Assembly (NCBI GenBank): GCA_016946835.1
Contig: JACVTC010000126.1
Span: forward strand, 477,501 to 539,722
Source: Neocallimastix lanati (nom. inval.)
Lineage: Eukaryota; Neocallimastigomycota; Neocallimastigomycetes; Neocallimastigales; Neocallimastigaceae
Direction of reading: 5' to 3'
DNA: 62,222 nt
In this document: piece after piece, positions 2,720-50,842 of the stretch
Numbering within the stretch: position 1 is the first letter of the stretch
Layout: each line of letters begins with the position of its first letter
Made by a program: the position numbers and the translations under genes
Notes under the pieces: model-generated
Seen by the model: only the letters and a program-made list of their open reading frames with translations
Told to the model about the DNA's origin: nothing
The model's database searches: none

Positions 2720-4663
<1,944 letters not shown>

Positions 4664-36277: not shown

Positions 36278-37190
36278 TGACCCGATTATATATTTATTAT
36301 AACATATTTTTGGAGATTTAATAATATGATAGAAATTTAATATAGTATAAATTATAATTTTTATTTTTTCTTATATATATATAATTAAGCTTTGTTTTTA
36401 TGTTATATTTTATTTTATTTTTATTTTATTTTTATCTTTTCATTCATTTATTATTATTTTTAACTGAATTATTAATTATTTATTAATAACCTATGACTGA
36501 TTTTATTTTTAATTAAAATTTCAATTAATAATGTTGGGAGATTATAGGGAGAGCTTAATTATATAATTTATAATAAAAAAAATTTTATTAAAAAAAAACT
36601 TTAAAAATAAATATATAATCATACAGATAAACAAACAATCAAATGAATGAATAAATGAATAAATAAATCTAACACTGTTAATGAAAAAATTGAAATAATT
36701 GTAATAACATTTACATATTTTTATCAATTACTATTCAAAAAACTATAATTAATATGCAATATTAATTATAATTTTTATCAGAATATTTTATTTTTTTATA
36801 TTTTTTTAAAAAAAAAATTTATAAAAGCATTAAATATATTATAATTTTAATTGTAATAATTATATTTATTTATTTATTTATTTTTATAAAATGTTAATAG
36901 ATTTTTTTTTTAATTACTATTTATAACAAAAAGTATTTAATAAAAATTACAAAAAAAAAAATAATAATAAAATAAAATACAATTATTATGTATATATACA
37001 TTTATTTTTTTTACATAATTACTTAATATTACCAATTTTTTTTTAAAAAAAAAAGATTATGTTTAAGAAATAAAAACAATTTTAGGGGTTATATTTTTTT
37101 TAATGAATTAACAACCTCTATATTTGTCTTTTTTTCTTTTTTCTTTTTTTCTTTTTTTCTATGAAATAATACTTAAATCATTTTAAAAAA

Positions 37191-37221
<31 letters not shown>

Positions 37222-37829
37222 ATAGAAAAAAAGATAAAAAAGATAAAATAAAATATATTGTACAAATTATAATTTATAAATGTAAAATTTTAATAATTCT
37301 ATCAAAAATATAAATTTTTTTGATAATTATAATTATTAATGGTTTATTCACTATTAATATTTATTCCAGTAAAATAAAAATATAAACTAATGCTATAAAC
37401 TATATAAAAACATTACAATTATATAATATATATATATAATATCTGTTAAAATAATCACATTTTATTTTATATTTTTATATTATTAATATTATATTTTTAT
37501 ATTCTTATATTATAATCAATATTATATTTTTATCTTATATTAATATTTTATTCTTATATTTTTATGTTGTGTAACATTTATCTATGTGTATTAATTCATA
37601 GAATTATCACATGATTAAATATGTAATTTTTACTATAAAAAATAATTATTTTTATTATCTTAAAAAAAAAGGGAGTTCTTTACATTAATAAAATTTATGT
37701 ATTAACTAAATACAAAAATTAAATAAAGTTTATTATAAAAAACACACATACTTTTCTCAGATTAAGAGTCTCAATTAGCTCTTATTTATAAAAACATATC
37801 CGTTATTTAAAACCGCCTTTCTTATAGAT
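35253..37829. other. AT-rich intergenic region upstream of the copia-like element
   Basis: No gene seen. A 53-bp unit is tandemly duplicated at about 35408-35515. TAAA and AAAATAAAAAATTT repeats lie at about 35980-36060, and TAAA repeats at 37190-37225. A TGTTGTGTAACA at 37565 could be the start of the copia element's 5' LTR, but no matching 3' LTR is in the window, so this is only a guess. Confidence 0.4.
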
Positions 37830-38900
37830 ATGAATACTTCTAACAATTTAGATTCATCTTCAACTCCAAGAGAGATATTAAATGAAGAGAACTTTGATAT
37901 TTGGGCGTACGAATTGAGAACAAATCTCGAAATAAATCACATAGACAAATACATCCAATTCGACGCCAACGAAGAATTAAATGAGTTATATGATAAACTC
38001 AAATCTAAAAAGGAAGATAAGAAGAATATTGAAAATTCAATTTCTCTAATTAAAGAAAAGGACGGTAGAGCTCGCCAACAAATCTTATGTTCGGTTTCCA
38101 AAGAAACCAAAGCCACCTTGATAGGCCTTCGATTAAAATCGGCCTACGAAATGTATAAATATCTGGAAAGCGAATATAATATCATAAATATCAACAAAGT
38201 TCCAGATTTATACGACCGTTTAAAAAATCTAAGAGCCAAGACGGACAAAGAAGTAATCAAATTTACTACAGAATTCGAACATCTTTGTAATCTACTCAAA
38301 GAATTAGGAAAAACAATAGACGAAGATGAAAAATTCAAATTACTCCTGAAGGGACTCCCAGGGGAATATAAAAACTATGTCAAATTTAATTATAAAGACA
38401 ATCTTCAAGAGATTGCAAATGAAATCAGAACTATAGCCAAAAGAACTTTAAATGCGGAAGACCCAAAGCCAGTGGAAGAAGTTTCTTTTATAAAAAATAC
38501 GAATCATAATCATTCCCAAAATAATTCTAGGAATAATAATCATAATAATTATAATAACAATAACAATAATTATAATAATAATTATAATAATAACTATAAT
38601 AATAACTATAATAATAACTATAACAATAATAATCGGAGAAGAAGAAACCAGAAAAATAGCAAAATTAACAGGAACAAGACCAAAAGAAATAACGAGAAGT
38701 ACTGTTCAATCTGTGACAAACATGACTATTTCACAAGAAATTGCTACTTTAATGCAAGGAATCCTAATAATAAAATTAAAGAAATAGCAAGAAAGTTCAG
38801 CAATATTAACCTAGCCCAAGATACAATCAACAACCTAGAAATCATTGATGCCCTCAGTGACTATGATGAATCTCAAGAAACCCATGAAAAGAATATCTGA
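37830..38900 (+). CDS. copia-type Gag (UBN2/gag-polypeptide family)
   Basis: 356 aa. Residues about 20-215 resemble the UBN2 / copia gag capsid domain (FDIWAYELRTNLE, DLYDRLKNLRAKTDKEVI, LLKGLPGEYKNYV). An Asn/Tyr repeat follows (about 225-270), then a basic stretch and a Cys motif. In that motif the three cysteines have zinc-knuckle spacing (CSICDKHDYFTRNC), but the histidine sits at position 7 and Tyr at the usual position 9, so zinc binding may be impaired. The ORF ends at TGA (38898-38900) and the same frame is open beyond it into pol. Confidence 0.85.
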   Translation: MNTSNNLDSSSTPREILNEENFDIWAYELRTNLEINHIDKYIQFDANEELNELYDKLKSKKEDKKNIENSISLIKEKDGRARQQILCSVSKETKATLIGLRLKSAYEMYKYLESEYNIININKVPDLYDRLKNLRAKTDKEVIKFTTEFEHLCNLLKELGKTIDEDEKFKLLLKGLPGEYKNYVKFNYKDNLQEIANEIRTIAKRTLNAEDPKPVEEVSFIKNTNHNHSQNNSRNNNHNNYNNNNNNYNNNYNNNYNNNYNNNYNNNNRRRRNQKNSKINRNKTKRNNEKYCSICDKHDYFTRNCYFNARNPNNKIKEIARKFSNINLAQDTINNLEIIDALSDYDESQETHEKNI

Positions 38901-38904
38901 CTAG
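38898..38904 (+). promoter_or_regulatory. TGA-CTAG stop-codon readthrough context between copia gag and pol
   Basis: The gag stop is followed by CTAG. The reading frame is open for eight codons before the next ATG (38925) and then to 42773. UGA-CUAG is the best-known readthrough-prone stop context in eukaryotes and viruses. Frame and motif are seen; readthrough itself is inferred. Confidence 0.65.
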
Positions 38905-38924
38905 ATGGAGAAAATCCATATGAC

Positions 38925-41900
38925 ATGTCTCCTGAACCACCAATGAATAACTCTTATGAATCAAATGATTTAATAATCAATTATTTAGGGGACTATAACA
39001 AACCTAAAACAAATCCAATCAACTATAATATTTCAAATGTATCAATTCATGATGAACATAAATCAAATATATCAGATAAAATTATGGAATCACGTGATAT
39101 AATAATCAATAACGTGGAAAATAATAATAATCTAGAATTAAACCTTATTGGTAAAAATAAATTAGTAAAACCTCATGATAGTCCACTTCCACCTATGATT
39201 CCAAATATAATTACAAACGACCTAAATAGAAAAACTATATATGAATTTATTAACAATCATAAATGTCATCCAGATTATAATAATGGATATGTAATATCCA
39301 TAGATTCTGGAGCATCTTCAAATATCACGGGATCATTAAAAAATCTATGTAATGTTAGAGATTATCATACTAATATGATACTACCAACAAAGGAAAAGGA
39401 AATAGTACAAGTTTCAAAAATTGGAGATCTTACGGGATACATCAATAATATTTACTTCATAATAAAAAATGTATTATATTCAGAAGATATTAATGAAAAT
39501 AAAACATTAATATCATTCAACGATCTTAAAAGACAATACTTAGTTGATATTATCATTATTGATAACAATGCATACTTTAGATTAGCAAAACTAAATGGTC
39601 AACTTTTATGCATAGAAAAAGAAAACTCAATCAAAATTTGTAATATTTACGTTAATAATAAACAAAGAAATTATAAAACAATATACAGTTTACAAAGTAG
39701 CAATCTAGACCAATACTCCTTAAGTATATGGCATAAAAGACTGTGCCATTTCTATAACAATAATCTTATTAAATTCCTAAATGGACACACAATTAACAAA
39801 ACTTTATGTATTGGCTGCAAAATATCAAAGCTGAAAAAAGAACCTTTCAGAAAAACTTTAAATGCAAGAAGTACAAGGCCATTGGAACTAATCCACTCGG
39901 ACATTATTGGACCTCTTAAAGAATCAAGGAATAATTTCAAATATATTTTAACTTTCCTTGATGATTTCACAAGAAAAAGTTGGATATATCTACTAAAAAG
40001 AAAATCCGAAGTTCCAGAAATCTTTGAAAATTTCATACGTATGGTGACAAATGAATCAAATTTAACAATAACAAAAATACAAAGTGACAATGGAAAAGAA
40101 TATACATCAAGAAAATTCATAGATATCTGCAACAAAGCAGGTATACAAAGAAATCTTATCGTTCCAAGAAACCCACAAAGCAGGTATACAAAGAAATCTT
40201 ATCGTTCCAAGAAACCCACAAAGCAGGTATACAAAGAAATCTTATCGTTCCAAGAAACCCACAAAGCAGGTATACAAAGAAATCTTATCGTTCCAAGAAA
40301 CCCACAAAGCAGGTATACAAAGAAATCTTATCGTTCCAAGAAACCCACAAAGCAGGTATACAAAGAAATCTTATCGTTCCAAGAAACCCACAAAGCAGGT
40401 ATACAAAGAAATCTTATCGTTCCAAGAAACCCACAAAGCAGGTATACAAAGAAATCTTATCGTTCCAAGAAACCCACAAAGCAGGTATACAAAGAAATCT
40501 TATCGTTCCAAGAAACCCACAAAGCAGGTATACAAAGAAATCTTATCGTTCCAAGAAACCCACAAAGCAGGTATACAAAGAAATCTTATCGTTCCAAGAA
40601 ACCCACAAAGCAGGTATACAAAGAAATCTTATCGTTCCAAGAAACCCACAAAGCAGGTATACAAAGAAATCTTATCGTTCCAAGAAACCCACAAAGCAGG
40701 TATACAAAGAAATCTTATCGTTCCAAGAAACCCACAAAGCAGGTATACAAAGAAATCTTATCGTTCCAAGAAACCCACAAAGCAGGTATACAAAGAAATC
40801 TTATCGTTCCAAGAAACCCACAAAGCAGGTATACAAAGAAATCTTATCGTTCCAAGAAACCCACAAAGCAGGTATACAAAGAAATCTTATCGTTCCAAGA
40901 AACCCACAAAGCAGGTATACAAAGAAATCTTATCGTTCCAAGAAACCCACAAAGCAGGTATACAAAGAAATCTTATCGTTCCAAGAAACCCACAAAGCAG
41001 GTATACAAAGAAATCTTATCGTTCCAAGAAACCCACAAAGCAGGTATACAAAGAAATCTTATCGTTCCAAGAAACCCACAAAGCAGGTATACAAAGAAAT
41101 CTTATCGTTCCAAGAAACCCACAAAGCAGGTATACAAAGAAATCTTATCGTTCCAAGAAACCCACAAAGCAGGTATACAAAGAAATCTTATCGTTCCAAG
41201 AAACCCACAAAGCAATGGAAGAGCTGAAAGATTAAATGGAACAATAATAAATGCTACAAAAGCATTATTAAATCAAGCAAAATTAAGCTACCATTTCTGG
41301 GAAGATGCTGTAAGAACCGCAGTTAAAATATACAACATGACTCCAAGAACTGCAATAAAGTTTAAAATTCCTGATGAATTATACTACCATAAAGAAGTGA
41401 ATATTGACAATCTTCGTGTTTTTGGATGCAGAGCATACTACTATGTAGACGCTTCCCTTAAAAACTCAAAATTTGATAACAACACATTACCTGGAATTTT
41501 CTTAGGATATGATGAACATTCTCCAGGATATGTTATTTTCGGAACTAATGATTGCAAAACTCATATTGTTCGTGATGCCGTATTCGAAGAGGATATCCCT
41601 GGAAACTTTAATTTTAATAACAAAACAAATTATAAAGAAAATTACACACCTGAAGAACTTAACACAGAAGAAGATGAAGATGAAGACGAAGATTTAGAAT
41701 ATGAATCAAATGAAAATAATTCAAACGTTCATCACCAAAGTAACAACAATCAAAATGTACTCTTAATTCAACAAAATTTCAATAATAATAATACTTCAAA
41801 TTTCAATGACAGTAACTATTCAAGTGAAGATTCTCATGAGTATTCTCAAAACAATGATAATAATAACTCATTAAATAATAACAAAATTTACAACGACAAC

Positions 41901-42773
41901 TATGATATTTCTACTAATAAATCAAATAATATTCCAAGTAATAATTCAAATATTATTTCAAATAATAAATCAAATAATATTCCAAATAATAATTCAAATA
42001 TAATTTCAAATAATAATTCAAACAATATCTCAAATAATAAATCAAATAATACTTCAAATATTATTTCAAATAGTAACTCAAACAATAATTCATATAAGAA
42101 TTCAAATAATTCAACAATTAAATCAAATATCTCGAATCACAATTTAACGAATAATTTAAATAAAATAAAATATATATTTAACAATGACTCAAATATTGTC
42201 AATAAAATGAAATCAGATATTAAACAATATAATTTAAAGCATAATGGTATTATTAGTGATTATAAAAATAATAAATTTAATGCTAATAAAATTGTTAATA
42301 AACAATTAAAACAGGCAACGAAAAATTTAAAAGATTTTATTAAAAATAAATATAACAATGAAGAACTCTTATCAGAAATTTACAAAAATATAAAATCAAA
42401 TATATTTTCAAATAATGATAATAACTCCTCAAATAATAATTCCAATACAAATAATAATTTAAAATCAATAAATAATTCTAATATTCCAATTAATTATCAA
42501 AATAATTCAAAGAATATATCTAATGCAAAACAGTCAAATAAAAAGATAATTATTAAAGTTCAAGCCACAAATTCAAATAATTTACATATGCCTGAAAACA
42601 TTAATCAAAATAGGAAAATTAAAAATCAAGCCACAATTAATACTTCAAAATTTTCAAAAAAAGAAGAGAGTGAGACGACAACCCGCGGATCCGATCCGGT
42701 GTCGTCGGTATCGTTGTGCAGTCGCCTCACAGCTCGACCAGCGAGCCATTTGGGGGAACCCCCGCGAGATTGA
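38925..42773 (+). CDS. copia-type Pol (protease + integrase only), with internal repeat array
   Basis: Open for 1282 residues from the first ATG, probably translated by readthrough from gag. The aspartic protease signature IDSGASS has its Asp at residue 127. The integrase zinc domain (H270, H275, CIGC near 297) and catalytic residues D326 and D388 follow, with the Glu at 768 in NGRAERLNG. D388 and E768 are separated by 379 residues because of the 43-bp repeat array. Subtracting 344 residues restores exactly 35, the DD35E spacing. After the integrase core (to about residue 915) the protein is Asn/Ser-rich, and the last 35 or so residues come from a GC-rich block of unknown origin. No YVDD-type reverse transcriptase motif is present. 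Almost certainly inactive as it stands. Confidence 0.85.
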   Translation: MSPEPPMNNSYESNDLIINYLGDYNKPKTNPINYNISNVSIHDEHKSNISDKIMESRDIIINNVENNNNLELNLIGKNKLVKPHDSPLPPMIPNIITNDLNRKTIYEFINNHKCHPDYNNGYVISIDSGASSNITGSLKNLCNVRDYHTNMILPTKEKEIVQVSKIGDLTGYINNIYFIIKNVLYSEDINENKTLISFNDLKRQYLVDIIIIDNNAYFRLAKLNGQLLCIEKENSIKICNIYVNNKQRNYKTIYSLQSSNLDQYSLSIWHKRLCHFYNNNLIKFLNGHTINKTLCIGCKISKLKKEPFRKTLNARSTRPLELIHSDIIGPLKESRNNFKYILTFLDDFTRKSWIYLLKRKSEVPEIFENFIRMVTNESNLTITKIQSDNGKEYTSRKFIDICNKAGIQRNLIVPRNPQSRYTKKSYRSKKPTKQVYKEILSFQETHKAGIQRNLIVPRNPQSRYTKKSYRSKKPTKQVYKEILSFQETHKAGIQRNLIVPRNPQSRYTKKSYRSKKPTKQVYKEILSFQETHKAGIQRNLIVPRNPQSRYTKKSYRSKKPTKQVYKEILSFQETHKAGIQRNLIVPRNPQSRYTKKSYRSKKPTKQVYKEILSFQETHKAGIQRNLIVPRNPQSRYTKKSYRSKKPTKQVYKEILSFQETHKAGIQRNLIVPRNPQSRYTKKSYRSKKPTKQVYKEILSFQETHKAGIQRNLIVPRNPQSRYTKKSYRSKKPTKQVYKEILSFQETHKAGIQRNLIVPRNPQSNGRAERLNGTIINATKALLNQAKLSYHFWEDAVRTAVKIYNMTPRTAIKFKIPDELYYHKEVNIDNLRVFGCRAYYYVDASLKNSKFDNNTLPGIFLGYDEHSPGYVIFGTNDCKTHIVRDAVFEEDIPGNFNFNNKTNYKENYTPEELNTEEDEDEDEDLEYESNENNSNVHHQSNNNQNVLLIQQNFNNNNTSNFNDSNYSSEDSHEYSQNNDNNNSLNNNKIYNDNYDISTNKSNNIPSNNSNIISNNKSNNIPNNNSNIISNNNSNNISNNKSNNTSNIISNSNSNNNSYKNSNNSTIKSNISNHNLTNNLNKIKYIFNNDSNIVNKMKSDIKQYNLKHNGIISDYKNNKFNANKIVNKQLKQATKNLKDFIKNKYNNEELLSEIYKNIKSNIFSNNDNNSSNNNSNTNNNLKSINNSNIPINYQNNSKNISNAKQSNKKIIIKVQATNSNNLHMPENINQNRKIKNQATINTSKFSKKEESETTTRGSDPVSSVSLCSRLTARPASHLGEPPRD
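40134..41208 (+). repeat. 43-bp minisatellite, 25 identical copies, inside integrase
   Basis: The unit begins AAAGCAGGTATACAAAGAAA. The array spans exactly 1075 bp (25 x 43). Because 43 is not a multiple of 3, successive units are read in three frames, all open, giving a 43-residue super-repeat (IQRNLIVPRNPQ, RYTKKSYRSKKPT, VYKEILSFQETH). The sequence CAAAGCA occurs at both ends of a single ancestral unit, a likely microhomology seed. The 24 extra copies add 1032 bp, a multiple of 3, so the frame is restored downstream. Confidence 0.97.
42668..42770. other. GC-rich block of unknown origin
   Basis: 103 bp at about 63% GC (65 of 103 by my count) in an otherwise very AT-rich region. It includes CGCGGATCCGATCCGG and a GGGGGAACCCCC hairpin. 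It is joined in frame to the copia ORF on the left and touches the gypsy LTR on the right. It could be foreign DNA captured at a junction, host sequence of unusual composition, or an assembly/linker artefact. Confidence 0.6.
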
Positions 42774-43268
42774 TAAGAATGTACTAAATAATGCATTCTT
42801 AATTAAATCTACGATTTATTTCTAATACATTATGTGTACATTATTATTTTTGTACTTTAATAAATTTTTAAATCCAAAGATCAAAAATTAAATCAAAAAT
42901 TATATTAAACTTTAGATTTTTATATTAAATCTTATATTAAAAGTAATATTTTTATATATTTAAAACTTATATTAGCAATATTAATAATAAATCTTATTTT
43001 TTTTTTATATTAATAATGAAAATTTATATTAATAATATTTTTATATATTGATAATTAAAAATTTATATATTATATTTTAACTTTTTATTATAAAATTTTA
43101 TATCGAAATGTTTTATTTTATATTGAAAAATATTTTATTTTATTAAAAACCTTTATATTAGAATAGTATTTTTATTTTTATTTGAATATTTTAACAGATT
43201 GTAATAAAAATTATAGCCAATTAAATAAATTCTTATTAGTAATATTTTAGATATTTTTAAATAAATAA

Positions 43269-43315
<47 letters not shown>

Positions 43316-43613
43316 TTTTATTAATATTATAAATGTATTTTATTTATATTGTTATAATTAAATTTTATATAACTAATTATAAAATTCAATTTAAATTTAA
43401 TAGTTTTTATAAAAAAAAAAAAAATAAATAAAATGTAATTTAGTGGCAAGAACAACTTTTATGCCTTGAAAAAAGTATAAATAGTTGTAAATTTTGCTAC
43501 TAATTTTTAAATATCATCAAGTAAAATTAATAAAATAAATAAAAATAATAAATAAATGAATAAAATTTGTGTTTCCTTACTTTATTTTTATTTAATTCTC
43601 TAAAACCTTAACA
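42771..43613 (+). repeat. gypsy element 1, 5' LTR
   Basis: 843 bp starting TGATAAGAATG and ending CCTTAACA. It contains an internal A43 tract (43271-43313). A TATAAATAG at about 43477 is a plausible promoter core. Confidence 0.9.
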
Positions 43614-43619
43614 TTTATA

Positions 43620-43636
43620 TGGTGGAGATATCGGGG
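43620..43636 (+). other. gypsy element 1 primer-binding site
   Basis: TGGTGGAGATATCGGGG lies 6 nt after the LTR. Its TGG start complements a tRNA 3' CCA. The first nine bases are shared with element 2. Confidence 0.65.
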
Positions 43637-45068
43637 AATTAAATAGAAATAATAGTAAATAACATAGATTTTTTTTTTTTTTTAATTTTTTTTATTTTAT
43701 ATTGATAAACAAGTAAGTCGTTAATCCTTTGATTAACCTATGGCGCTTGTTTGATATATATATAAAAAAATTTTTTTTAAATAAGTAAAATTAAGATTCT
43801 AAAAAAACAAATTTTGTAAAATTATAACAAGGAGCGGATAGAGCTCATACACAGTGTATTCTCAGATAGCAACAAATTAACTCTATTCATAGTAGGTTAT
43901 TGAATAGTAGTTAATTTGGAGATTAATTGGAAAGTAGACGAAGGTATTTGGTTACCGACCCGGTAATAATAGTTCAGCCTTCAACGTTTCAACACACGAA
44001 GGTGCGGGTACTTTCCAAGCACTGGCGAATAAGGAGCTTACGTCACCGAAGGCGTAAGATTGTTTTTTTTATATATATTTTTTTTACTTTTCTTTGTGCT
44101 AGTTATAAGGCACTTTATTATATAAAGTATCAGACTTTGGCTAACTTCGCCATTTAAATTTTTTTTATTTTTTTTTTATTACTGATACTTTATTTGTTTA
44201 ATAATTCCTGTAAAAGAATCTTAATTTACTTTGAAAATATTGTGTTAGTTAATAAAAATATTATTGAATACTTTTAAAATTTTTTTTATTCCGTACATAG
44301 ATTATCGGATTAAGTTTATCCTACATAGTAATTGGGCTAGTGGGCTCTGAACTGCTATATTTTATATTGAATATAGTAATCGTGGCACACGCGTGGCATG
44401 ACACCATTAGGTAAGCTGCACGTCAGACAGTGTGTACTATCAGATTGTACGACAATAAAGATTATTTTTTGTATTTAATAATTATAATTAATTAATAATT
44501 TTATTAGCTATAACAAAACAATATTTATCGTTTAAAAAGAAAAATTTTTGAAAGGTGAAAATAATAAATAAAACTTTGCTTCTAAATTTATTACTACAAA
44601 TATACTAAATTACAAAATTCAAGTGGTCGATAAAGATTTCGAGCTTGAAAAATTATTCTATTAAGTTGTCGATAAAGATTTCGAACTTAAAATTATTCTA
44701 TTAAGTTGTCGATAAAGATTTCGAACTTAAAATTATTCTATTGAGTTGTCGATAAAGATTTCGAACTTAAAAATTATTCTATTGAGTTGTCGATAAAGAT
44801 TTCGAACTTAAAAATTATTCTTAATAAAGTAGTCGAAAAGAACCTCGTGCTTTATAATTTCTACTAAGTTGTCGATAAAGATTTCGAGCTTATATCTACT
44901 AAAGAAAGCAAATAAAATTATTATTTTCAAAAGTTACTAAAATATATTGTTTTAAAAAAATTGATTCGATATTAAATTACCTATTAAATTATATTTTTAA
45001 AGTTGTATTTCCAAATTTATTCTTATTTAATCACCTCATTAATATACAACAAGAAATATTTAAACAAA
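43637..45068 (+). other. gypsy element 1 untranslated leader
   Basis: About 1.4 kb without a convincing gene. A two-tier hairpin lies at 43707-43752 (AAACAAG/CTTGTTT outside GTTAATC/GATTAAC). A GC-richer, possibly structured zone lies at about 43828-44060 and another at 44330-44450. The open frame at 43927-44157 starts at TTG and resembles nothing I know. A roughly 40-bp tandem array (44623-44895) precedes gag. Confidence 0.55.
44623..44895 (+). repeat. tandem 40-bp repeats in the gypsy leader
   Basis: Six good copies and one diverged copy of a unit with core GTCGATAAAGATTTCGARCTT, starting near 44623, 44665, 44705, 44745, 44786, about 44830 (diverged) and 44869. The embedded TCGA...TCGA spacing suggests a small repeated structural or protein-binding motif, for example for RNA packaging. 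Confidence 0.75.
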
Positions 45069-45980
45069 ATGTCCAAGGAAACAACTTTGAGCTTTAAAGA
45101 ATTGAAAAAAGAATTAAGAGATATTGTGAAACTTAGCAAGGACAATTTAGATATTAAGTCCTGGGCTACTGAATTAAAACTTTGGATCAAGATACAAGGT
45201 ATTACAGATCCAGAAACAATATTTAATGCTTGTTTACTTACCAGCTCTGGTGAAGTACAACGCGTTATTGAAGATTTGGGAGAAGATAGTGATGATGAAA
45301 GTGATGATTCATCAGATGAAGAAGAAGAAGATGATGAAGAAGAAAATGTTGATGATGATATTAAATTTCCTTCTCTTGGAAAAATCATTTCAAGTCTTGA
45401 AAATTTTTACGGTATTAAAGAAGACCAAAATTTACTTCTTAAAGAACTTCGTGCAATGCGAATTAAAAGAAACGAAAAGATTAAAGACTTTAATGTAAGA
45501 TATAGAACTTTGTACACTAAACTTGATAAAAAGAGAAGAAAGCGCATCGGTGTACTAGATTATATTGATTCTATTCAAAATAATTATGAAGCTTGGAAGA
45601 AATTATCCCTTAAAGATGATATAAGTATGGAGAAAGCTTTCAAAATTGCCGAGAAAGTAGATAGACTTTCTGTAAGGAACAATAATATTAATACCTATAA
45701 TGTTAATAATTCCCAGCATAATCAAAATAATCAAAACAGTACTACTTCAAGACTTTATCCTAAAAGAAGAAACGAAACTTTCCAAACAAGTCAAACAAAT
45801 AATAAACCGAAACCTCAAGATATTATAGAAGAATCAACCCAGAAAATGAGAAATTTATCTATTAAAACTTGCTTCTTCTGTAAGGAAGAAGGTCATTACT
45901 CATACTATTGCCCTCAATTAAATAAGATTATGGAAAAAAATAAAAAAGAAATATATTCCAAAAAGTCTTTAAACTTCTAA
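45069..45980 (+). CDS. gypsy element 1 Gag
   Basis: 303 aa from ATG at 45069; the open frame extends upstream only to a TTG. It starts MSKETTLSFKELKKEL, has a strongly acidic stretch (SDDESDDSSDEEEEDDEEEN), then a retrotransposon capsid domain (SLENFYGIKEDQNLLLKEL, MRIKRNEKIKDFNVRY). It ends with a canonical CX2CX4HX4C zinc knuckle (CFFCKEEGHYSYYC). The last codons TTA AAC TTC TAA contain the slippery heptamer for Pol expression. Confidence 0.92.
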   Translation: MSKETTLSFKELKKELRDIVKLSKDNLDIKSWATELKLWIKIQGITDPETIFNACLLTSSGEVQRVIEDLGEDSDDESDDSSDEEEEDDEEENVDDDIKFPSLGKIISSLENFYGIKEDQNLLLKELRAMRIKRNEKIKDFNVRYRTLYTKLDKKRRKRIGVLDYIDSIQNNYEAWKKLSLKDDISMEKAFKIAEKVDRLSVRNNNINTYNVNNSQHNQNNQNSTTSRLYPKRRNETFQTSQTNNKPKPQDIIEESTQKMRNLSIKTCFFCKEEGHYSYYCPQLNKIMEKNKKEIYSKKSLNF

Positions 45981-46020
45981 ATGGGAGCAGAAGCACTCCC
46001 AATGACAAAACAATAGCTTC
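45968..46020 (+). promoter_or_regulatory. -1 ribosomal frameshift signal, gypsy element 1
   Basis: Slippery TTTAAAC at 45968-45974 is in the correct register (TTA AAC in the gag frame). A 7-nt spacer follows, then a 6-bp stem (45982-45987 with 45996-46001, TGGGAG/CTCCCA) and an 8-nt loop. Loop bases GAAGC (45990-45994) complement GCTTC at 46016-46020, so an H-type pseudoknot is possible. Slipping back one base enters the pol frame, which is open from 45974 to 49978. Confidence 0.85.
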
Positions 46021-49000
46021 ATTAAATAATTTACAAAATAATACTTTTACTAAGAATACTCCAATTGATAATAATTCCTTTAATGAAGAATCTGAAGAAT
46101 TTGATTTTAGTGACACACCTGATAGTGAGGATGATATCATTATAAATGCTATAAAAAGAAAAATGAATGATAATAACAGCGAAAAAGAAGAAAGTAATTC
46201 CAAGAAAGTACATAAAAGTTTAAAAGATAATCCACGTCCTTTCGCAACTCCTGCTTTAAGAAAGAAGAAAGAAAATGAGCTACATAATAAACCAAATAAA
46301 GCTTATAAAAATCAAATACTTCCATCAATTTTAACTCAACCAAATATTAACAAAGAAAAACAAAAAGAAAAGGAATTAAGAAATATGACAAGAGTAAGAG
46401 AAAGTAAAGAAGAAAACAACAATTATTCATCAAAAGGAAAGGAAAAAGTTGAATCTGAAGATATACTTGTAATCGATAATGAAATAGAAGATCTAGAAAT
46501 GAATAAAGATAATCAACAAAATAAAACTAATACTTTGGAAAAATTAATTTCAACAAAAACTAAAGAAACTAATAATGGAAATACTCAGTTAGTAAAGAGG
46601 AATATTAAAATGATGAATAATAAAGAACCTTACAATATTATGGATGATTTAAATAATCTTAAATCCAGTATTACGATAGGTCAACTCTTGAATGCATGTC
46701 CGAAAATTCGTTCACAACTAACTCAAGGTTTAAAGTTAGAAAAATCTAAAATAATTGGAACTGTAGACAATGTAATAGCACGAACTTTATTAGTAAATAA
46801 CTATGATCATAGCTACATAAGTAAAAGTAATGAAGTAGCCGAAGAAGACTTAGCAATGGTTGATGCAAGTGTTGACGGAGTACTAGGAAAACTTTTAATT
46901 GATTCTTGTAGTAACCTAAGCATCGTTACTAAGCAGTATTTTGATAAATTACCTGGTGAATATGAAACAGTTGGAAAAAGTCGTGGAAGAATCCAACTAG
47001 CAACACAAGATGAAGAATACTCGGAAGGAATTATTGTTCGATTACCAGTAAAAATTAATAATTATGAATTTAATGCGGACTTTAGAATTATTGAGAAAGA
47101 AGACTCTTTTTATGATATGTTAATAAACTTTAAAACTCAAATCGATCATTGTTTATTTATTCATCCGACCTTAAACAGTTTATGTAAACTTTTGTCAGAA
47201 AGTGAATACGAAGAAATAGCTAAAATAAATAATCAATATTATGATGAAGAAAGTATAATTTGCACTATTAGAAAAGTTAAAGAAACGAATAATGAAAAGG
47301 AAATTATAAAGGAATTAACTCCAATGGAATTTATTGAGAGTGATGAATTTTTAAGTACCTTAAATAAAGATTATAAAGAACAAATTATTAAAATTCTCAA
47401 AGAAATGATTGACATAGTTGCCACTTCAACAGAAGAACTAACTCCTTCTAAACTTTCACCACATAAGATCCGTTTAAAAGCAAATTCAAAGCCAGTAAAA
47501 TTAAGAAGTTATAGGTTAACTAAATTAAAATCAGATATCTTAAAAGAAGAACTTACAAAACTTATTAAGAAAGGATTGATAGAACCATCCTGTTCAGAAT
47601 GGTCATCTCCAGTAGTACTTATTCTAAAACACAATGGAAAGTGGCGCTTGTGCATTGACTACCGAAAAGTCAATGATATGACAGAAAAAGATTCTTATTC
47701 AGTTCCATATATAGATGAAATTTTTGATAGTCTCGGAGGAGCTAAAATATTTACAACTCTTGATTTATTTTCTGGTTTTCACCAAATCTTAATGGATGAA
47801 GAAAGCGTTGAAGTAACCACTTTCACTACTAAGTTTGGAAATTATCAATTTAAGGTTATGCCTTTTGGACTTACTGGAGCTCCCTCAACCTTCCAAAGAG
47901 AAATGAATAAAATTTTATTCCCTTTTATTGGTGAATTTGTTTACGTATTTATTGATGATGTTTTGATCTATTCAAAAAGTATCGAAGAACATTTAATTCA
48001 TATTAAACAAGTATTAGAAGTATTTAAAGAAAACAAGTTAAAAATTAATATTGAAAAGTGCCATTTTCTTCAAACTGAAGTTGATGTATTAGGTCACAAA
48101 CTTACTACTAAAGGATTAAGTCCCATGGAAAGTAAAATAACAGCTATTAAGAAGTGGGAAGCCCCTTCATCAATTCATGAATTAAGATCATTTCTAGGAG
48201 CAGTAGGATATTATCGTGACTTTATTCCTAAATATGCTCAAATTACCTCACCTTTATGTAAATTATTGAAAAAGAATACTAAATATGAATGGAATAAAGA
48301 ACAACAAGAAAGCTTTGAACTCCTAAAAGAAAAATTAATCAATGCACCTATTCTAAAATTTCCGTCATTTGACAAACCTTTTATCATTAGAACTGATGCT
48401 TCGTATAATGGAATTGGTGGAGTTCTTTTACAAAAAGAAGAAGAAACCGGTAAGGAGCATCCAATACACTTTATAAGTAGAAGTTTAAAGAAAGCTGAAA
48501 AGAATTATGGTATTACCGATTTGGAAGGAACCGCTTTGTTTTACTGTATGACTAAATTTAAATCTTATATTGAAGGAAATCCACTACCTACAACTATTTA
48601 CACAGATCATAAACCATTAGTTGGTTTATTTAAGAATAAAGAACCTTTGAATGCAAGGCAAACAAGATGGTGTCTAACCGCTAGTATGCTTGGAATTAAT
48701 ATAAAATATGAATCAGGCAAAAAGAATGTGTTAGCTGATGCTCTTTCAAGAATGAAAAGTAAGGAAGAGAGAAAGATATTATTAACAAAAATTACTGATG
48801 GAAATAATGAAGAATTATTATCTAAAGTTATAAAGGAATTTATTAATGAAAAGTTTACTGTTATTGATGGTGAAGATTACTTTATCGACAATGGAAATTA
48901 TAGAAAATTAATAACGGACGAAAATGAAAGGTTTAAATTAATTTTAGAAGCTCATAATATTGGCCACGAAGGATATTACAAAACATATCAAAGACTTAAG

Positions 49001-49978
49001 AAAAACTTTTATTGGAATCATATGATTAAAGATATCAAAAGAATTGTTAGTAATTGTGAAAAATGCCAATTAAATCGTCCTCAACCATATCCAGAACCAA
49101 CCGAAAACCATCCAACTAAAGTGGAGGGTCCCTTTGTGCATTTAGGATTAGATATTATAGGACCGTTACCAAAAACAAGAAATAATAATCAATATATTAT
49201 AGTAACTGTTGATTACTTTACCAAATGGGTTGAAGCCGAACCCACTGAAAACATAACTTCCTCTGATATAATTAAATTTTTAATAAACGTTTTTGCAAGA
49301 CATGGTGTACCTCAAGTTATTACTACTGATAATGGAGTCCAATTCACTTCTGATATGACTAAAATCTTTCTTGATTTTTATGATGTATATGTTAAATTTG
49401 TAGCTACTTACCACCCTGAATCAAATGGCCTTACTGAAAATCGAAATAAAGAAATTGGAAAATTACTTCGTTTATTAGGAAGGAAAAATCAAGATTGGGA
49501 TGAAGTTTTACCTTCTGCTTTATGGGCACTTCGAACTACCAAAAATACAGCTACTGGACATTCTAGTTTTGAATTAGTATATGGAAGAGAAGACCAACAG
49601 CCTTATGATATAGCCATAAGAACAATTGAAAATGCAGGTAAATCATATGATGAAATTTTAATGGAAAAATTTGTTCGTCATTATCAATGGACTAGAGAAG
49701 CATGCGAAAATGTGAAGAATGCTAACAAGTATTGGGCAACAAGACGAGAAGAACAAATAAGTATGAAAAAGGGAAAAGAATTAAAGGCTGGTGATCTTGT
49801 TCTTGTTAGAAACTTTAGCCGCACTAAGCTAGAACCATATTACAATGGACCATTTAAAATTTTAAAAATTCAATTCAACACGGCAACCCTAATCGATCAG
49901 AAGACTGGAAAGCAACTCGATAGGAATGTTCACTTTAAAAATTTAGTAAAGTTTAACTCCGCTTACAGAGAAGCTTGA
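45974..49978 (+). CDS. gypsy element 1 Pol (protease, RT, RNase H, integrase)
   Basis: Open in the -1 frame for 1334 codons from the slip site; the first ATG is at 46163. Residue numbers count from that ATG. After a charged Asn/Lys-rich linker comes an aspartic protease with LLIDSCSN (D247; Ser-Cys instead of the usual Thr/Ser-Gly). The RT has WRLCIDYRKVN, DLFSGFHQI, MPFGLTGAPSTFQ and active site FIDD (D598/D599). RNase H (RTDASYNGIGG, YTDHKPL) follows, then the integrase zinc domain (HNIGHEGYY, CEKC) and catalytic D997, D1056, E1092, which is exact DD35E spacing. It ends with a GPF (GPY/F-type) module and no chromodomain. No frame breaks. Confidence 0.95.
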   Translation, partial: LLNGSRSTPNDKTIASLNNLQNNTFTKNTPIDNNSFNEESEEFDFSDTPDSEDDIIINAIKRKMNDNNSEKEESNSKKVHKSLKDNPRPFATPALRKKKENELHNKPNKAYKNQILPSILTQPNINKEKQKEKELRNMTRVRESKEENNNYSSKGKEKVESEDILVIDNEIEDLEMNKDNQQNKTNTLEKLISTKTKETNNGNTQLVKRNIKMMNNKEPYNIMDDLNNLKSSITIGQLLNACPKIRSQLTQGLKLEKSKIIGTVDNVIARTLLVNNYDHSYISKSNEVAEEDLAMVDASVDGVLGKLLIDSCSNLSIVTKQYFDKLPGEYETVGKSRGRIQLATQDEEYSEGIIVRLPVKINNYEFNADFRIIEKEDSFYDMLINFKTQIDHCLFIHPTLNSLCKLLSESEYEEIAKINNQYYDEESIICTIRKVKETNNEKEIIKELTPMEFIESDEFLSTLNKDYKEQIIKILKEMIDIVATSTEELTPSKLSPHKIRLKANSKPVKLRSYRLTKLKSDILKEELTKLIKKGLIEPSCSEWSSPVVLILKHNGKWRLCIDYRKVNDMTEKDSYSVPYIDEIFDSLGGAKIFTTLDLFSGFHQILMDEESVEVTTFTTKFGNYQFKVMPFGLTGAPSTFQREMNKILFPFIGEFVYVFIDDVLIYSKSIEEHLIHIKQVLEVFKENKLKINIEKCHFLQTEVDVLGHKLTTKGLSPMESKITAIKKWEAPSSIHELRSFLGAVGYYRDFIPKYAQITSPLCKLLKKNTKYEWNKEQQESFELLKEKLINAPILKFPSFDKPFIIRTDASYNGIGGVLLQKEEETGKEHPIHFISRSLKKAEKNYGITDLEGTALFYCMTKFKSYIEGNPLPTTIYTDHKPLVGLFKNKEPLNARQTRWCLTASMLGINIKYESGKKNVLADALSRMKSKEERKILLTKITDGNNEELLSKVIKEFINEKFTVIDGEDYFIDNGNYRKLITDENERFKLILEAHNIGHEGYYKTYQRLKKNFYWNHMIKDIKRIVSNCEKCQLNRPQPYPEPTENHPTKVEGPFVHLGLDIIGPLPKTRNNNQYIIVTVDYFTKWVEAEPTENITSSDIIKFLINVFARHGVPQVITTDNGVQFTSDMTKIFLDFYDVYVKFVATYHPESNGLTENRNKEIGKLLRLLGRKNQDWDEVLPSALWALRTTKNTATGHSSFELVYGREDQQPYDIAIRTIENAGKSYDEILMEKFVRHYQWTREACENVKNANKYWATRREEQISMKKGKELKAGDLVLVRNFSRTKLEPYYNGPFKILKIQFNTATLIDQKTGKQLDRNVHFKNLVKFNSAYREA

Positions 49979-49980
49979 GT

Positions 49981-49996
49981 CTTCGTCGGGGCATCT
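49981..49996 (+). other. gypsy element 1 polypurine-tract region
   Basis: CGTCGGGGCATCT directly precedes the 3' LTR. The GGGGCATCT end is shared with element 2, so it is probably the plus-strand primer site. Confidence 0.5.
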
Positions 49997-50494
49997 TGAT
50001 AAGAATGTACTAAATAATGCATTCTTAATTAAATCTACGATTTATTTCTAATACATTATGTGTACATTATTATTTTTGTACTTTAATAAATTTTTAAATC
50101 CAAAGATCAAAAATTAAATCAAAAATTATATTAAACTTTAGATTTTTATATTAAATCTTATATTAAAAGTAATATTTTTATATATTTAAAACTTATATTA
50201 GCAATATTAATAATAAATCTTATTTTTTTTTTATATTAATAATGAAAATTTATATTAATAATATTTTTATATATTGATAATTAAAAATTTATATATTATA
50301 TTTTAACTTTTTATTATAAAATTTTATATCGAAATGTTTTATTTTATATTGAAAAATATTTTATTTTATTAAAAACCTTTATATTAGAATAGTATTTTTA
50401 TTTTTATTTGAATATTTTAACAGATTGTAATAAAAATTATAGCCAATTAAATAAATTCTTATTAGTAATATTTTAGATATTTTTAAATAAATAA

Positions 50495-50540
<46 letters not shown>

Positions 50541-50838
50541 TTTTATTAATATTATAAATGTATTTTATTTATATTGTTATAATTAAATTTTATATAACTA
50601 ATTATAAAATTCAATTTAAATTTAATAGTTTTTATAAAAAAAAAAAAAATAAATAAAATGTAATTTAGTGGCAAGAACAACTTTTATGCCTTGAAAAAAG
50701 TATAAATAGTTGTAAATTTTGCTACTAATTTTTAAATATCATCAAGTAAAATTAATAAAATAAATAAAAATAATAAATAAATGAATAAAATTTGTGTTTC
50801 CTTACTTTATTTTTATTTAATTCTCTAAAACCTTAACA
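49997..50838 (+). repeat. gypsy element 1, 3' LTR
   Basis: 842 bp, same as the 5' LTR apart from one A in the A-tract. It is followed by the AGAT target duplication. Confidence 0.92.
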
Positions 50839-50842
50839 AGAT

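Follow-up and report, generated by a model that had tools for sequence, protein, structure and literature searches.

A model credited to Haber and Louis derives the birth of minisatellites from short flanking direct repeats, and a paper that discusses it (PMC3389668) counts 300 human arrays of transposon origin with direct repeats of 5 to 20 bp on their flanks, 7 bp being the commonest length. In plants, retrotransposon sequence has likewise become tandem array: CRM1TR/CRM4TR (PMC3648361), Ogre-derived satellites (PMC7004042), and Gmr9 minisatellites (PMC3305785) come from LTR or UTR sequence or from sequence downstream of the coding region. Here we describe an array in the fungus Neocallimastix lanati that shares a retrotransposon source with these plant arrays but lies in the integrase core of a Ty1/copia element. 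Like the Haber-Louis minisatellites as presented in PMC3389668, it has a short direct repeat on either side of the unexpanded unit, a partial unit that closes the array, and a transposable element as host. Unlike the human transposon-derived arrays presented there, it has about 25 units at a single locus, against one unit in each of 28 sister copies of the same genome, and it lies inside a protein-coding core, in a fungus. We consider it, with a probability of roughly 0.75, to be a newborn minisatellite in one chromosomal, defective Ty1/copia copy. The array changes nothing in the known route of array origin, which is already published, also for other transposable elements. It would be an unusually clean minisatellite birth: the pre-expansion state is kept in 28 sister copies, the initiating 8-bp repeat can still be read, and the array lies in a coding core, so its effect can be predicted. 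A search of titles and abstracts in the open-access literature, which is not proof of absence, found no tandem array inside a copia integrase.

The stretch analyzed (the window), 62,222 bases long, forms the end of contig C31 (539,722 bases), which belongs to a 199-Mb assembly of 762 contigs; near its start the window carries a gene for a polyadenylate-binding protein (positions 2720 to 4201). The maximal run of period 43 extends on the forward strand from 40132 to 41214, that is, over 1083 bp made up of 25 units and 8 bp, and is 100% identical throughout. The 43-bp unit has 25 exact matches in the real sequence and none in 100 shuffles, so the 25 identical repeats that the initial annotation had placed inside the integrase are confirmed. 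Its span of 40134 to 41208 located the array correctly and fell short by 2 and 6 bases at the two ends. Twenty-five units of 43 bp give the array the size of a minisatellite, and its unit has a G+C content of 37%, versus 18.9% for the window. In a TRF survey of 266,819 bases, which took in the window and loci L030 to L051 and considered arrays with a period of at least 10 and at least 4 copies, it received the top score.

Searching the genome with the array returned 29 candidates, all of which were scored: the array locus and 28 others. Each of the 28 gave one match of 51 bp (49 bp in one case), equal to one unit plus 8 bp, with an identity of 100% in 16, 98% in 9, and 96% in 3; when read, these loci each held one unit in the same context as the array flanks. 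The unit is bounded there by an 8-bp direct repeat, ACAAAGCA, whose two copies are both exact at 25 of the 28 loci; in L022, L028, and L029 the left one differs. At the array locus, the left ACAAAGCA occupies positions 40132 to 40139 and the right one, which is the partial unit closing the array, positions 41207 to 41214 (forward strand). A 24-mer spanning the unit junction, allowed up to three mismatches, matched at the array locus only (24 of 24 matches in this assembly). A further search with the 532 bp left of the array, in which 40 of 84 candidates were scored, gave the known copies, 3 partial matches that end before the array position, and 8 distant relatives with 68 to 69% identity. The array had no matches in viral contigs or in bacterial and archaeal contigs, two sets from which records of this genome may be omitted and the second of which is uninformative for a fungal array. 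The array is thus private to one locus, and only this copy is expanded in the assembly. The single-unit state, which the initial annotation had suggested seeking in other copies, is present in 28 of 28, in keeping with its proposal that one ancestral unit was expanded.

Because all 28 sister copies hold a single unit, the junction occurs only here, and ACAAAGCA stands at the ends, we favor a locus-private expansion that began at the direct repeat. The two 8-bp repeats would have mispaired, by replication slippage or unequal exchange, to give a first duplication; the longer homology then available would have allowed further slippage or unequal exchange up to about 25 units. The initial annotation had likewise placed the start at flanking microhomology, correctly apart from its length, which is 8 bp and not 7, and so within the 5 to 10 bp expected under the Haber-Louis route. 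That the array closes with a partial unit equal to ACAAAGCA argues for a newborn minisatellite, as do the published model and its counts, which fit the locus (PMC3389668). Several points count against it. The array is present on a single contig, and the timing estimate given below does not show it to be younger than the insertion. Eight-base pairs are common in this AT-rich sequence: the roughly 3 kb of gag-pol in the sister copy L042 contain 58 pairs of 8-mers lying 20 to 120 bp apart, many of them in low-complexity tracts, although among these only the ACAAAGCA pair is spaced 43 bp. Chance alone would seldom give a unit free of stops, a point taken up below. Nor did hairpins of the unit in single-stranded DNA show anything unusual that would promote slippage (z scores of 0.41 and 0.64).

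The host of the array is a Ty1/copia element on the forward strand, with a 5′ LTR at 37444 to 37759 that is similar to the 5′ and the 3′ LTR of L034 and other sister copies, and a gag of copia type at 37830 to 38900 (match to PF14223). The array lies in frame within pol (38925 to 42773), a truncated frame that encodes an integrase core (PF00665), the array, and an SH3-like domain (PF25597), and whose last bases extend slightly into an adjoining gypsy element. When the sequence surrounding the array was used as a protein query, 14 matches resulted, copia-like polyproteins as judged by their listed domains, the best with 65% identity over 54% of the region. The Ty1/copia assignment is based on the gag type and on an integrase ahead of reverse transcriptase (RT), the latter order being taken from L034 and L047, the two sister copies scanned, both of which have RVT_2 beyond the integrase. 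In contrast to Ty1/copia elements at large, which have two LTRs and RT, the array-bearing copy has only the 5′ LTR: no RT domain was detected by the domain scan, and no 3′ LTR was found right of the array. The sequence to its left (36500 to 37440) has its sole full-length match in C31. The array-bearing copy is chromosomal and defective. This absence of RT, set against its presence in L034 and L047, also speaks for a newborn minisatellite. The initial annotation overlooked both the truncation right of the array and the missing RT.

An LTR-type flanking direct repeat was found in 13 of the 20 copies fetched at about 10 kb, and because 4 of these pairs are 100% identical, the family has moved recently. 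Between integrase and RT, a 24-bp imperfect repeat in frame (41905 to 42110) encodes an Asn-rich linker, and its copy number differs among sister copies. Within the AT-rich linker of pol lies a stretch rich in G+C (42662 to 42769); 3 of the 7 sister copies inspected, as well as contig C13, have an exact match to its 12-base core, GGGGGAACCCCC.

Similarity to the sister copies ends at the boundary 42769/42770, the alignments to L034, L048, and L042 all stopping at 42769. At this broken end lies a Ty3/gypsy element on the forward strand (42771 to 50838) with AGAT on both sides. The element is young; its LTRs (42771 to 43613 and 49997 to 50838) differ by no substitution and one gap. Beyond it the sequence is not copia but another repeat, which matched at 96 to 100% over most of its length among the 40 of 2,395 candidates scored. 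The AGAT motifs fit a 4-bp target duplication, which would place the insertion in an already truncated copia copy; a search for the empty site found the joined flanks at no other place. At a second locus, on C13 (L051, at about base 3546), copia and a related gypsy element also meet at this copia position, give or take 1 or 2 bases; the coincidence would be explained by preferential insertion at this site or by an older junction common to both loci. The gypsy element has a tandem repeat of its own between 5′ LTR and gag, with a 40-bp period and about 6.7 copies at 86% match (44617 to 44892).

A trivial explanation for the array could be an assembly artefact, the true locus having one or few units. 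The genome was assembled from PacBio Sequel reads (62× coverage, mean length 7,821 bp) with MECAT and polished with ARROW, according to PMC8561657; such polishing of noisy reads may have made the units look identical. The array is present on one contig, C31, and the count of 25 is provisional. From position 41942 onward the window is duplicated by the overlapping contig C461 (21,323 bp); 2,514 aligned columns contain 1 mismatch and 14 gap bases, and the two are collinear at 50839 and 57200. C461 supports the copia-gypsy junction; it offers no second allele of the array, since it begins 728 bp to the right, a circumstance that leaves room for an artefact. However, reads of that mean length span a 1.1-kb array, the junctions of the array with its flanks have the sequence context seen around the single unit in sister copies, and 24 exact invented units would, in our judgment, be an unusual error for such assemblers. 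We therefore regard an artefact as very unlikely. The last 20 kb of C31 (41942 to 62222) are thus assembled a second time in C461, and between 57200 and 58600 the window matches C461, and likewise 38 other places, at 98% in every case, which suggests that errors gather at the end of C31.

The perfect identity of the units had been taken initially to imply a very recent burst. This does not follow. In the flanks of the array-bearing copy, 9 substitutions are private to it among 4,027 sites with 8 or more other copies aligned (6 in 2,188 sites in an earlier count with shorter flanks and at least 10 other copies), and its nearest sister copy, L042, differs at 52 of 4,003 sites. If the array were as old as the private changes, only 2.4 substitutions would be expected in it, with a probability of 0.09 of seeing none (0.12 in a second reckoning), and the consensus is polished. 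The absence of substitutions leans toward an array younger than the insertion and decides nothing, as polishing may hide variants. Dating by the copia LTR pair was ruled out, no 3′ LTR of this copy having been found.

These same probabilities leave some room for an array made before integration, the template having slipped repeatedly between the 8-bp repeats in the course of reverse transcription, so that the insertion brought the array with it into the chromosome. Changes in tandem copy number do occur in the family, the 24-bp linker repeat ranging from about 5.6 to 12.1 copies. Against such an origin, not even two units are present in any other scored copy, and it needs either many slips within a single cycle or a series of cycles from which no other copy remains; we consider it unlikely. 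Expansion after insertion, at the chromosomal locus, remains our preferred reading.

The consequences for the integrase can be read from its catalytic positions, D326, D388, and E768. As initially proposed, the array splits the catalytic core between D388 and E768, which are 379 residues apart instead of showing the D,D(35)E spacing of an active integrase; 344 of these residues come from the extra units, and subtracting them leaves exactly the 35 that had been calculated for a core without the 24 extra units. In the integrase of one sister copy the single unit ends as NPQSNG directly before the catalytic Glu, a stretch that we take to be the flexible active-site loop. In the alignment, the foamy-virus-type integrase structures 3dlr and 3oyk have HPQSSG and HPQSHG at this place. 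An insertion of 344 residues immediately ahead of the catalytic Glu would, we infer, destroy the integrase.

The array is nevertheless open on the sense strand in all three frames, as the initial annotation held, and carries one stop per unit on the antisense strand. Its 24 extra units keep the downstream frame; not every copy number would, since only counts with remainder 1 modulo 3 are in frame, as 25 is. Cyclic 43-mers free of stops in all frames number 38 of 3,028 in the gag-pol of each of 5 sister copies, 28 of the 38 starting in the unit's own tract, compared with 10 of 2,838 in the window's own flanks and 2,412 of 62,180 in the whole window. Among the 13 8-mer pairs of L042 whose spacing is not divisible by 3, only the ACAAAGCA pair gives a stop-free unit. 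That such a unit, at about 1% of 43-mers in the sister gag-pol, expanded by a number that keeps the frame (a chance of 1 in 3) could point to a filter for the open frame acting while gag-pol was still translated. Yet the insert breaks the D-D-E core, the copy is without RT, no relative has the array, and the test was made after the fact on one event with an uncertain unit count. The coincidence is mildly surprising, and we find such filtering extremely unlikely. No more credible is its extension to a transposing lineage in whose integrase a repeat protein grew immediately ahead of the catalytic Glu, with the open frame filtered and integration supplied in trans by sister copies. Since this copy breaks off right of the array and has no RT, its open frame may be of no consequence for any working element, and under the newborn-minisatellite reading it would be incidental.

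In this copia family, gag and pol share one frame split by a stop in the context UGA-CUAG (38894 to 38905, with TGA at 38898 to 38900), a strong context for stop-codon readthrough. The window has this context, and so does every one of the 21 sister copies alignable at the site (7 of the 28 are not), and two open frames abut at the UGA stop in 12 of the 20 ten-kilobase copies. Gag-Pol of the family may thus be made by stop-codon readthrough. The RNA downstream of UGA-CUAG folds only slightly better than its shuffles (z score of −1.19).
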